In this document: positions 26,329-33,536 of the stretch, one piece after another
How the letters are laid out: each line of letters begins with the position of its first letter
How positions within the stretch are numbered: position 1 is the stretch's first letter
Assembly: GCA_014584695.1 (NCBI GenBank)
Contig: JACTMI010000010.1
Location: 62,001 to 126,000 of the forward strand
Reading direction: 5' to 3'
DNA length: 64,000 nucleotides
Origin: Acidobacteriota bacterium
GTDB lineage: Bacteria; Acidobacteriota; Thermoanaerobaculia; Multivoradales; JAGPDF01
Made by a program: the position numbers and the translations under genes
The notes under the pieces: model-generated
What the model saw: the letters and a program-made list of their open reading frames with translations, nothing else
The model's database searches: none
What the model was told of the DNA's origin: nothing

Positions 26329-27899
26329 TCAGCCGGGACGCTGGCGGCGCAACAGCAGCAAGGTCTGGTCGTCGCCCTGGGCCTGCCCGCCGGCGAAATC
26401 CATGACCGCCGCGCCGATCTCGTCCAGCAGGAGCGGGAGCGGACGTCCGCGGCCCGCCGCCAGCATCGCCTCGAGGCGCTCGGTGCCGAACTCCTCGTCC
26501 TCCGGTGAGGTCGCCTCGGTGATGCCGTCACTGTAGAGACAGAGCAGGTCGTCCGCCGCCAGCTCCAGCCGCTCGAGCCGCCAGCTGCCGGCGGCCAACA
26601 GGCCGAGTGGCAGCCCGCCCGGTCCGAGTCGCTCGACCCGGCCGTCGGCCCGCAGGACGAGACCGGGGTTGTGGCCGGCGTTGACGTAGGAGAGCACGCC
26701 GCTCTCGGTGTCGAGCTCCGCGACCAGGAGGGTGATGAACTTGTTCGGCGCGCTCGACTCCAGGATGTGCTGGTTGAGCCGCGAGAACAGCTCGGGGCAG
26801 ATCGACACCCGCTCGGCCAGCAAGCGCAGCGCCGAGTGCAGGGTCGACACCAGCAGCGCCGCCGGCACGCCCTTGCCGGAGACGTCCCCGACCACCAGCC
26901 CGAGATGCCGCGGATGGGGCAGCGGCAGGAAGTCGAAGTAGTCGCCGCCGATGTGGCGCGCGGGCCGGTTCCAGCCCGCGATGTCGAAGCCCGGGACGCG
27001 CGGGACCTCCTTGGGGAGGATCTGCCGCTGAATCTCCGAGGCCAGCTCGATCTCGTGCTCGAGCCGCTCCTTCTCGAGCGACTGGCGGTGGAGCTCGGCG
27101 TTCTCGAGCGCGATGGCGGCCTGGTTGGCCAGCAGCTCGAGCGTGCGGCGGTCGCTCTCCGGGAAGGGACCGACCCCGCGCCGGCTCTCCTTGTCGCCGA
27201 CCACCAGGATCCCCTTCGGTTCGCCGTCGATCGCGATCGGGACGCCGAGCAGGAACTGGGCGCCCGGCAGGGCGCACCGAGCAGCTCCACGCCCTCCTCC
27301 GAGGCCGGGTCGATCGCCGCCTGGGCATCCCCGCCGAAAGCGTGGTGGAGACGCATCATCGCGCCGTCTTTGAGATAGAGCGCGCCGCGCCGGGCGTCGA
27401 GCAGCGAGACGGCGCGCATCAGCACCTCCTCGCACAGTTTCTCGAAATCGAGCGTCGAGGCGATCGCCAGGCCGACGTCGTAGAGCGCCTCCAGCTGCAC
27501 GCCCCGCGTCTTGACCTCGAAGTCCTGGCGCTTGAGCTGCTTGCGGACTTGCTGCTCGCGCGCGACGGCGCCCAGAGCCACCACCAGCGCACCGAGCTCA
27601 GGCGACATCTCCTCGACCTTCACGCTCGAGCGCTCGCGCACGAAACCGCCGGGAAAGGACCAGACGCCCGGGCCGTCCGGGACCGCGCTCAGTCGGTCCT
27701 CGAACTGCTCGGCGCCGCTCGCGAGCTCGCGTCGGAAACCGCTCTCGGTGGCCAGGTAAAGCGCCGCGCCGCCACCCCCGGCGGCCCGATCGGCCAGCCC
27801 GAGCAGCCGCTCCGCGAGACGCAGCGAGGCGGCCTCGTCGCGCAGCAGCTTCAGCAGCTCCGCCCCGGCGGACGCGGGGACCGGGGACGGGCCGCTCAC
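26329..27899 (-). pseudogene. RsbU-type PP2C phosphatase with GAF domain, frameshifted
   Basis: The gene encodes a GAF domain (about 115-270) followed by a SpoIIE/PP2C phosphatase (about 310-520) with RHIGGDYFDFLPLP, LVVGDVSGKGVPAALL, YVNAGHNPGL, LYSDGITEAT and GDDQTLLLL all intact. It should activate the STAS antagonist by dephosphorylation. The reading frame shifts near 27268-27280: the GAF part reads SEEGVELLGAP and must move to ALPGAQFLLGVPIAID, equivalent to one missing base. The length is one base short of a whole number of codons. No slippery heptamer is evident. Either this is a real inactivating deletion or a sequencing error, since both flanks are well conserved. GTG 27899 starts immediately after the STAS gene. 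Confidence 0.8.
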
Positions 27900-27901
27900 C
27901 T

Positions 27902-28252
27902 TCAGCCGCCGAGGCCGGCGACCGCGTCGCCCTCGTCGCCGAAGATCGCCGCGTACTGCGCCAGGCCCATGATGTGGAACGTCTTCTCGATGGTCGGCGT
28001 GAGCGCGCAGAACGCCAGCTTGCCTTCCACTTCGAGCATCTTCTCGATGATCTCGATCAGGATCGAGATCCCGATCGAGTTGATGATCTTGGTGCCGGTG
28101 AGGTTGAGCAGGAGCACCTTGTAACCCGCCTCGATGAGCTCGTAGGCCGCGCGGGCGATCTCCTCGCCACCCTGGTTGTTGATGTAGCCCTCCGTGTAGA
28201 TCACGGCCAGGGCATCGCGGCGATCGATCGTCAGTTTGAGCGCTTCGGTCAT
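27902..28252 (-). CDS. STAS-domain anti-sigma factor antagonist
   Basis: This 116-residue protein is a SpoIIAA/RsbV-type STAS domain. Its motif GTKIINSIGISILIEI (about 53-68) carries the serine in NSIGI that kinases of this family phosphorylate. When unphosphorylated, such proteins bind the anti-sigma kinase and release its target. It lies between the kinase gene (16 bases upstream) and the phosphatase gene (two bases downstream), so kinase, substrate and phosphatase are made together. CTGGGGAGATGACC-type spacing gives a plausible ribosome site. Confidence 0.9.
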   Translation of the reverse strand: MTEALKLTIDRRDALAVIYTEGYINNQGGEEIARAAYELIEAGYKVLLLNLTGTKIINSIGISILIEIIEKMLEVEGKLAFCALTPTIEKTFHIMGLAQYAAIFGDEGDAVAGLGG

Positions 28253-28268
28253 CTCCCCAGCCCCTCTC

Positions 28269-28706
28269 TCAACGCGACTTGCTCATCACGACCGTGGTGC
28301 CCTGGGAGCCGGAGAGGATCTCGACCTCGTCCATCAGCCCCTGGATGATCTTGAGACCCCAACCGCGCTTCCGGTCCCCCTTGATCTTCGCCTCGATGCG
28401 CGGCTCTTCGACCGCGGCGGGCTGGAAGCCGACGCCCCGATCGTGGACCCGGATCTCCAGCCGCTCGGGTCGCGCGCCGCCGCCGATCAGTCGGAAGGTG
28501 ATGTCGACCTTGCGCTCGGCGGCGCGGCTGTGCTCGAAGGCGTTGATGCAGGCCTCGACCACCGCCATGCGGACCTCGTCGACCCGGTCGGAGCTCATCC
28601 CCACGAACGACGCCATGGCGCTCGCGGCCTGGCTGGCCACGATCTCCATGTCCGGCGCCATCGGGAGGATGAGCGTCACCTCCCGGGTCGGGGGGAGCAG
28701 GGTCAT
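28269..28706 (-). CDS. RsbW/SpoIIAB-type anti-sigma serine kinase
   Basis: This 145-residue GHKL kinase has the N-box VVEACINAFEHS (about 48-59), G1 motif VHDRGVGFQP, and a G2-like KRGWGLKIIQGLMDEVEI near the C-terminus. It should phosphorylate the adjacent STAS antagonist and bind a sigma factor or other partner. No sigma factor gene of the sigma-B type is in the operon, so its final target is unknown. ATG 28706 comes 16 bases after the microprotein stop. Confidence 0.88.
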   Translation of the reverse strand: MTLLPPTREVTLILPMAPDMEIVASQAASAMASFVGMSSDRVDEVRMAVVEACINAFEHSRAAERKVDITFRLIGGGARPERLEIRVHDRGVGFQPAAVEEPRIEAKIKGDRKRGWGLKIIQGLMDEVEILSGSQGTTVVMSKSR

Positions 28707-28722
28707 CGGCGCGACCGCCCGG

Positions 28723-28878
28723 TCAAAACGCCAGATAGAGCTCGAGGAGGTAGACGAAGAGCGGGTGAATCCGATCCTGCGCGAGCAGCCAGAGGAAGCT
28801 CGCCACGGAGGCGGCGCCCACGATCTTGTCGAGCGGCAGCGCGCGGAGCGCGTTGGTTCTGGCAACGGACGTGAGCAT
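28723..28878 (-). CDS. 51-aa hydrophobic microprotein leading the partner-switching operon
   Basis: This small frame is preceded by GGAGGAAGC six bases before its ATG and follows a sigma-54 promoter directly. The peptide begins MLTSVARTNALRALPLDKIV, continues through GAASVASFLWLLAQDRIHP and ends LFVYLLELYLAF. It has two hydrophobic segments (about 18-33 and 39-51) split by a polar QDRIHP turn, suggesting a membrane-associated hairpin. No family is known to me. Tight spacing to the kinase gene (16 bases) and the strong ribosome site support it as a real gene. It may tether or sense for the kinase/antagonist pair. Confidence 0.72.
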   Translation of the reverse strand: MLTSVARTNALRALPLDKIVGAASVASFLWLLAQDRIHPLFVYLLELYLAF

Positions 28879-28905
28879 GGAGCTTCCTCCCGGCCCTTCC
28901 CAGAG

Positions 28906-28920
28906 GCAACCTCCCTGCCA
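28906..28920 (-). promoter_or_regulatory. Sigma-54 (-24/-12) promoter of the partner-switching operon
   Basis: On the minus strand the sequence TGGCAGGGAGGTTGC matches the sigma-54 consensus TGGCAC-N5-TTGC in the invariant GG and GC at the exact spacing of 12. Transcription would begin near 28895, giving a leader of about 17 bases before the microprotein ATG. A gene for a sigma-54-type activator lies just upstream on the same strand. Confidence 0.75.
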
Positions 28921-28961
28921 ACCCGTCGCCCGCTTCGACCCTGGCCCTCAAGTGCTTTGAA

Positions 28962-28975
28962 TGGAAGCGTTTCCA
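28962..28975. promoter_or_regulatory. Inverted repeat upstream of the sigma-54 promoter
   Basis: TGGAAGCGTTTCCA is a near-perfect palindrome (TGGAA-N4-TTCCA) about 42 bases upstream of the -24 box, a position where activator sites can lie. A second pair, TGTCGCA near 29028-29034 and TGCGACA near 29119-29125, is also present in this 281-base gap. Any of these could bind the neighbouring activator. Confidence 0.4.
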
Positions 28976-29159
28976 GAGCCGACCGGAACCGCGACCGCGA
29001 AACCGCCCCACCCGCGCCGCGACGAATTGTCGCACCTCGCGCGGGTCCCGGCCGCGAGACGTGCTCCCACGCCCCAGTCCTGTTGATCCCAGAGCTTCTT
29101 GGGTCAAATTGCTGCATATGCGACATAAAGCCTCATTCTCCGCTCGGACCGACCGCAAG

Positions 29160-30650
29160 TCAGAAACCCTTGCGCTGCAATGTTTTCCGATCCACCCCCA
29201 ACAGCCGGGCCGCCTCGCTCTTGTTGCCGTGCGCGAGCCGCAGCACCTTGGCGATGTGCCGCCGCTCGACCGCGTCGAGGTCGAGCGGCTCCGGCCCGGC
29301 GACCGGCGGCGGCGCGGCGCCCGGCCCCGCCAGCGAGCGGAGCAGGTCGGCCTCGATCCGTCCGTCGGCCAGAGAGATCGCTCCTTCGATCAGGTTCTGC
29401 AGCTCCCGCACGTTGCCCGGATAGTCGTGCTCGAGCAGCAGCTGGAGCGCCTCCCGGGACAGCTGCGGCGGCGGCATCTTCTCACGGGCGCAGAAGTCGT
29501 CGACGAACAGCCGGACCAGATGCGGGATGTCCTCCCGCCGCTCGCGCAGCGGCGGCAGCTCGAGCTCGACCCCCTTGAGACGGTAGTAGAGATCCTCGCG
29601 GAAAGTCCCCTCGGCGACCAGCGCCTCCAGGTGGCGATGCGTGGCCGCCACCACGCGCACGTCCACCCGCACCGGCTGCTCGCCGCCGACGCGGACCACT
29701 TCGCGCTCCTGCAGGGCGCGCAGCAGCTTGACCTGCAGGACGGGCGGCATGTCGCCCAGCTCGTCGAGGAACAACGTGCCGCCGTCGGCGAGCTCGAACT
29801 TGCCCCGCCGGGCCTGCACGCCGGTCGCCACCCCGCCCTCGATGCCGAACAGCTCGCTCTCGAGCAGCGACTCGGGGAGCGCGCCGCAGTTGAGCGCGAC
29901 CAGCGGCCCATCGCGCCCGGACAGGTGGTGCAGGAGCTTGGCGATCAGCTCCTTGCCGGTGCCGCTCTCGCCGCGGACCAGGACGTTGACCGAGCGGGGC
30001 GCCACCCGCTCGACCAGATCGAGCACCCGGCGCATCGCCGGCGCCGAGGCGACGATGCGCTGCCCGCCGACGCGCGCTTCGAGCTGGCCGCGCAGCGCCT
30101 TGTTCTCCTCGGCCAGTCGGGCGCGCTGCGTCTCGAGCGTCTCGACCCGCCGCGCGCCGTCGACGGCGACGCCCGCCAGCGTGCCGACCGACTCGAGGAA
30201 GCGGCGGTCCTCGGCGGTGAACCCGGAGCCGCCGCCGCCGCGAGCCTCCTTGTCGAGGAGCGCCAGGTAGCCGAGGAAGACCCCTCGCGCCACCAGCGGC
30301 GCCGCGATCAGCTCGTGGAAGCCCAGCCCGGCGAGCGCTCCCTCCCGCCGCTGCAGCGGCTGGCCCTCGGCCAGCAGCTCGCGCCAGATCGGCTCGGCGA
30401 GCAGATCGCCGCCCTCGGGCTGCGCGCCCGGCCAGCCGACGATCGATAGAGCGCGCGCGCCCGCCACCGGATCGCGGGTCACCACCGCGGCGGTCGAGGG
30501 ATCGAGCACCAGGCAGACCCGCCCCAGGAGCTCGTCGAGCAGCTCCTGCTCGTCGGTCTCCCCGTGCAGCGCGAGCGCCAGGTCGTACAGCGTCTCGAGC
30601 TGCAGCAGCCGCCGCTTCTCGGCGAACGAGGGGGCGCCGGGAACCGCCAT
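29160..30650 (-). CDS. Sigma-54-type enhancer-binding regulator (GAF-AAA+-Fis) with variant GAFTGA loop
   Basis: This 496-residue regulator has a GAF sensor domain (about 10-165), a short coiled coil, an AAA+ domain (about 195-420) and a Fis-type HTH at the very end ([32 protein letters not shown]). The AAA+ motifs are intact: Walker A GESGTGKE, Walker [13 protein letters not shown], and the arginine-finger region FREDLYYRL. The loop that contacts sigma-54 reads GGVATGV where GAFTGA is standard. The adjacent promoter at 28906-28920 is its likely target. It lies 12 bases after uvrA-side sequence on the same strand but may have its own promoter. Confidence 0.9.
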
Positions 30651-30662
30651 CGCGGCCGAATT

Positions 30663-33536
<2,874 letters not shown>

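Follow-up and report, generated by a model that had tools for sequence, protein, structure and literature searches.

Switches built from a serine kinase, a STAS antagonist and a phosphatase usually control a stress sigma factor. The locus described here, in which such a switch is headed by a sigma-54-type box, raises two questions: whether sigma-54 drives the operon, and what the switch acts upon. An earlier note on this DNA had answered both, proposing a sigma-54 promoter that feeds an Rsb-type module and thereby links sigma-54 to a sigma-B-type system. Here, the first proposal is strengthened and the second is not supported.

Organization of the locus

The operon lies on the minus strand of the window (the whole 64-kb stretch of DNA that was analyzed), in the order microprotein, kinase, STAS protein and phosphatase. 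The kinase, STAS and PP2C phosphatase genes, with a microprotein in front, were found where the earlier note had placed them; the extent it gave to the system proved too short, as the system reaches further upstream to operators (29018-29135) and to the gene of an enhancer-binding protein (EBP; 29160-30650). The features, in the direction of transcription, are as follows.

29160-30650, minus strand: EBP with GAF, AAA+ (sigma-54 interaction) and Fis HTH domains, 496 amino acids (Pfam)
29119-29135, minus strand: operator 1, TGAGGCTTTATGTCGCA, centred 207 bp before the -24 box (de novo palindromic motif, position conserved)
29100-29116, minus strand: operator 2, TGCAGCAATTTGACCCA, centred 188 bp before the -24 box and 19 bp from operator 1
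29018-29034, minus strand: operator 3, TGCGACAATTCGTCGCG, centred 106 bp before the -24 box
28905-28920, minus strand: sigma-54 -24/-12 promoter, TGGCAGGGAGGTTGCC, with core box TGGCAGGGAGGTTGC at 28906-28920 and predicted +1 at ~28894
28723-28878, minus strand: microprotein, 51 amino acids, two predicted hydrophobic helices, C-terminal LxF (Shine-Dalgarno sequence and alignment)
28269-28706, minus strand: RsbW/SpoIIAB-like serine kinase (HATPase_c_2), 145 amino acids (Pfam E 8e-26)
27902-28252, minus strand: STAS protein (RsbV/SpoIIAA-like), 116 amino acids, Ser59 in INSIGIS (Pfam E 5e-11)
27285-27899, minus strand: phosphatase N-terminal part, start of the GAF domain, first frame (frame comparison with relatives)
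26329-27300, minus strand: phosphatase C-terminal part, rest of the GAF domain and SpoIIE/PP2C domain, second frame (SpoIIE E 4e-47)

The kinase profile matched the structures of RsbW (6m36) and SpoIIAB, and its hallmark residues were invariant among relatives; its scores fell below the NCBIfam equivalog cut-offs. By these features, it is an RsbW/SpoIIAB-type GHKL serine kinase whose ATP site is intact. Ser59 of the STAS protein aligns with Ser58 of SpoIIAA, the preceding Asp being replaced by Asn, and the NSIG motif with its phosphorylatable Ser is present in nearly all relatives. The phosphatase is of the SpoIIE/PP2C type, with a GAF domain and with the hallmark residues kept. In the window, its frame is broken near 27285 (N-terminal part from 27899 to ~27285, C-terminal part from ~27300 to 26329). 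Both halves lie in one frame in 108 relatives; the break therefore most likely reflects an indel specific to this assembly, and the frame change at 27270-27300 is probably an assembly or sequencing indel. A programmed frameshift in the phosphatase was ruled out, since the relatives are in frame.

Kinase and STAS genes (the latter with NSIG) without an EBP or a sigma-54 box were observed in other Acidobacteriota classes (L229 and L231) and in Poribacteria (L137). In L229 and L231, two SpoIIE-like phosphatase genes follow one another, one of them encoding a long membrane part; no sigma factor was evident beside these tandem genes.

The promoter, its activator and the operators

The box TGGCAGGGAGGTTGC is present at 28906-28920 on the minus strand, as had been reported, with the correct GG-N10-GC spacing. 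A single box is near chance (11 near-matches in the 64-kb window versus 10 expected) and is not significant alone; its significance derives from conservation. Kinase orthologues were sampled from same-order relatives, from 80 GTDB loci, whose record titles mostly named Acidobacteriota, Thermoanaerobaculia or Holophagales and after these Poribacteria, and from 20 additional genomes spread over the phylum. A box was counted at nonredundant loci with enough upstream DNA if it scored at least 17 of 19.6 and lay at most 450 bp upstream of the kinase gene. The box was found at 67 of 71 nonredundant Thermoanaerobaculia loci, versus 3.4 expected from first-order shuffles, and a control interval inside the operon contained one at 1 of 70 loci. 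At three of the four remaining loci, the box sits further upstream, before the microprotein gene; the fourth (L085) is the sole case among the 71 class loci in which no box was found. The T-GG and T-GC columns were invariant over 80 promoters; conservation of the flanks was weak at most, and the spacers took 60 different forms. These sites were picked by best score, a bias for which the first-order shuffles control.

Box and EBP were found together at all 10 additional, more distant loci of the same class, and none of 14 outgroup loci had the box. In other Acidobacteriota classes, an adjacent upstream EBP was found at 0 of 10 loci, though kinase and STAS genes were present, and a strong box was missing from these loci, which yielded only two isolated matches scoring 17.2 and lacking the initial T. 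The genome contains rpoN, and no sigma-70-type promoter was seen in 28700-29300.

The EBP, whose gene lies immediately upstream in nearly all class members, has the domains of an NtrC-family bacterial EBP by Pfam (Sigma54_activat, 4e-62; GAF; HTH_8, 1e-10). Its L1 loop, the sigma-54-contacting segment, reads GVATGV in 76 of 76 readable orthologues, while other readable EBPs of the same genome have GAFTGA or GSFTGA. Because GVATGV stands in place of GAFTGA, the EBP was counted as a variant of the family. GAFTGA has been described as essential (PMC12316311, PMC2941729), and its Phe was reported to be essential in PspF (PMC2941729); a Desulfovibrio EBP with GVATGV has been predicted to serve sigma-54 promoters (PMC4641369). 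The GVATGV-loop EBP is a predicted sigma-54 activator, and its naturally invariant loop offers a means to test the true role of the GAFTGA Phe. The GAF domains of the EBP and the phosphatase are 35 to 37% identical in some relatives; in the genome studied here, the phosphatase GAF is not a clear best match of the EBP GAF. The EBP may thus have acquired its GAF domain from the phosphatase in the past, but only the identities in those relatives point that way. The EBP gene starts 12 bp after a uvrA-like gene (30650-30663, minus strand). Since uvrA precedes the EBP gene in many relatives, EBP expression may be coupled to uvrA.

A de novo search for palindromic motifs in 66 EBP-to-promoter intervals returned the 17-mer YGSGRCAWWWTGYCSCR, with 173 sites compared with 3.1 in shuffles; the motif was trained on the intervals in which it was counted, so this count is descriptive, and the fixed spacing was not an input. 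Measured from the -24 box, the three sites stand near -208, -189 and -107, and in most loci they are spaced 18 to 20 and 79 to 84 bp apart; two of the three operators in the window are imperfect. This arrangement resembles an NtrC-type operator. The three 17-bp palindromes are likely the enhancer of the promoter, with the EBP as their predicted binder.

The promoter thus combines a conserved -24 GG and -12 GC with upstream operators, an EBP and rpoN in the genome. Sigma-54 control of the operon is strongly supported at the sequence level by the conserved box, the adjacent EBP, the three phased operators and their joint absence in outgroups.

In 72 genomes, the exact operator occurred 35 times, 27 of them at the module, and a reversed control pattern occurred 0 times. 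A larger EBP regulon was rejected: matches in the genome studied here, with one mismatch allowed, do not exceed the control, and exact matches are mostly at the module. Isolated exact operators off the module were observed at L185, L183, L182 and L180 (G026, G048, G043 and G006), with no strong sigma-54 box within the 2- to 3-kb locus around the match; one of these matches is apparently inside a gene.

Palindromes that match the operator fully or nearly were also observed at type I-E-like CRISPR arrays, 2 to 3 nt away from the first repeat, in five leaders from three genomes of the order (L170, L171/L245, L177/L246, L242 and L243; G034, G028 and G039). Such leader palindromes account for three of the eight exact operator matches away from the module. 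A search for the leader-plus-repeat pattern in 396 genomes of the phylum gave otherwise only apparently unrelated sequences; the palindrome was not seen in the readable leader of an Acetobacter type I-E match, and other plasmid matches read for the pattern looked like spacers or chance. In some relatives, the EBP may bind these leader palindromes, or they may be a separate leader motif.

The microprotein and the target of the switch

The microprotein gene has an ATG at 28878 with GGAGG ahead of it; among relatives, the start typically lies 25 to 37 nt past the -12 GC and is preceded by a Shine-Dalgarno sequence. A family profile detected the microprotein at the module in 62 of the 71 genomes from this order, with two extra marginal matches elsewhere. 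It is essentially a single-copy family adjoining the promoter. Its C-terminal part is the most conserved: P39 and L49 are invariant, F28, W30, L32 and L45 are nearly so, and the last residue is mostly Phe. In distant class members, the layout is kept and the microprotein sequence has diverged. A spurious open reading frame was ruled out by the Shine-Dalgarno sequence, the alignment, the occurrence in 62/71 genomes, pairwise Ka/Ks values of 0.22 to 0.32 and the presence in distant class members. No Pfam or NCBIfam family matched. By these sequence comparisons, the microprotein is a real family that lacks a name in Pfam and NCBIfam. An AlphaFold2 model had two hydrophobic helices, at low confidence (mean pLDDT of 66).

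That the operon encodes no sigma-B-type factor, as the earlier note had stated, is true and understated. The genome (97.8% complete) shows one region-3 sigma-70 protein, a 576-amino-acid frame of RpoD size, and nearly all strong region-3 matches in 71 genomes of the order are in RpoD-sized frames. This survey was a Pfam search for region-3 sigma-70 proteins; within it, no factor of the sigma-B, sigma-F or FliA type, and thus no cognate group-3 sigma factor, was found in the genome. The proposed link from sigma-54 to a sigma-B-type system is therefore not supported, and the target of the partner switch must be of another kind.

The locus is very probably a self-contained one-component sigma-54 circuit consisting of the EBP, operators, promoter, microprotein and partner switch. 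In such a circuit, the GAF-domain EBP would bind the three palindromic operators ~100 to 210 bp upstream of the -24/-12 promoter, and a signal to its GAF domain would lead to remodeling of sigma-54 RNA polymerase. The microprotein, serine kinase, STAS protein and GAF-SpoIIE phosphatase would be transcribed as one, rpoN-dependent operon. Kinase and phosphatase would set the phosphorylation of STAS Ser59 and thereby whether the kinase holds the STAS protein or another partner, for which a housekeeping sigma factor, an ECF factor, the EBP itself (feedback) or a nonsigma protein are candidates. The microprotein is probably located at the membrane, as an anchor or sensor for the module. Points that weigh against the circuit are the GVATGV loop of its EBP, the imperfection of two window operators and the boxless L085 locus.

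One specific version of this output step is that the switch controls the housekeeping sigma factor: kinase induced through sigma-54 would tie up RpoD and so release core polymerase to sigma-54, making a feed-forward sigma switch. RpoD is the sole region-3 sigma-70 protein found, and a report on Chlamydia RsbW and sigma-66 (PMC11619594) provides a precedent; the interaction with RpoD is, however, predicted by analogy, and ECF factors are candidates as well. We consider this version improbable. The fuller scheme, in which the kinase sequesters the housekeeping sigma factor, core polymerase shifts to sigma-54 and a membrane microprotein serves as sensor or anchor, is improbable as well.

A different division of the operon would make the microprotein the primary sigma-54 target, with the partner-switch genes transcribed mostly from their own or other promoters and only loosely coupled to it. 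In G039 (L065), three operators, the promoter and the microprotein gene lie together 2.7 kb upstream of the kinase gene, from which they are separated by intervening genes, one on the opposite strand, and at a few loci the microprotein and kinase genes lie far apart. In nearly all genomes, however, a few tens of bp separate the two genes (16 bp in the window), and the lack of a visible sigma-70-type promoter in 28700-29300 also speaks against separate transcription, which makes this division unlikely.

An undetected sigma-B-type factor encoded elsewhere is a very unlikely target: the resemblance of the kinase and STAS protein to RsbW/RsbV and SpoIIAB/SpoIIAA would fit it, but it is contradicted by the lone 576-amino-acid region-3 protein and by the RpoD-sized frames across the order, unless a divergent group-3 sigma factor escaped the Pfam search or sits in the missing 2% of the genome. 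Finally, a chance origin of the box, with transcription of the operon by read-through from uvrA and the EBP gene, might be suggested by ~10 near-matches per window and by the closeness of the EBP gene to uvrA. This reading is scarcely credible and is contradicted by the operators and by the conservation of the box, which rules out chance (67/71 versus 3.4 expected).

Comparison with known systems

The locus resembles the RsbU-RsbV-RsbW system of Bacillus and Listeria sigma-B and the SpoIIAA/SpoIIAB/SpoIIE system in having a serine kinase, a STAS antagonist and a PP2C phosphatase in one operon, with the conserved Ser and the ATP-binding residues. It differs from them in that no sigma-B-type factor was found in the operon or the genome, in its sigma-54 promoter with EBP and operators, in its extra microprotein and in the Asn for Asp before the Ser. 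The Rsb switch of Chlamydia also operates in a genome without sigma-B, with the housekeeping sigma factor as a possible partner; unlike the present locus, neither a sigma-54 promoter on the switch genes nor a microprotein is described in the accessible part of that report (PMC11619594). Bordetella Btr, Vibrio SypA/SypE and Pseudomonas HsbA/HsbR share the kinase/STAS/phosphatase logic and have outputs that are not of the sigma-B type or not yet known, but the accessible part of their description (PMC8256260) contains no EBP-operator-sigma-54 unit and no microprotein. The DVUA0100 EBP of Desulfovibrio vulgaris has the same GVATGV L1 loop, and its gene is co-located with sigma-54 promoters predicted as its targets; in contrast to the EBP described here, it serves type III secretion operons (PMC4641369).

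Partner switches of this kind were already known. What appears to be new is the enhancer dependence of the switch, together with its dedicated variant-loop activator and a new microprotein family; the arrangement is apparently conserved throughout a class of environmental bacteria in which no sigma-B-type factor is seen that the switch could control. In the literature searched, a single paper named both Thermoanaerobaculia and sigma-54, and the operator, promoter, variant-loop EBP and microprotein provide testable parts for the wiring of sigma-54 to serine phosphorylation in Acidobacteriota.
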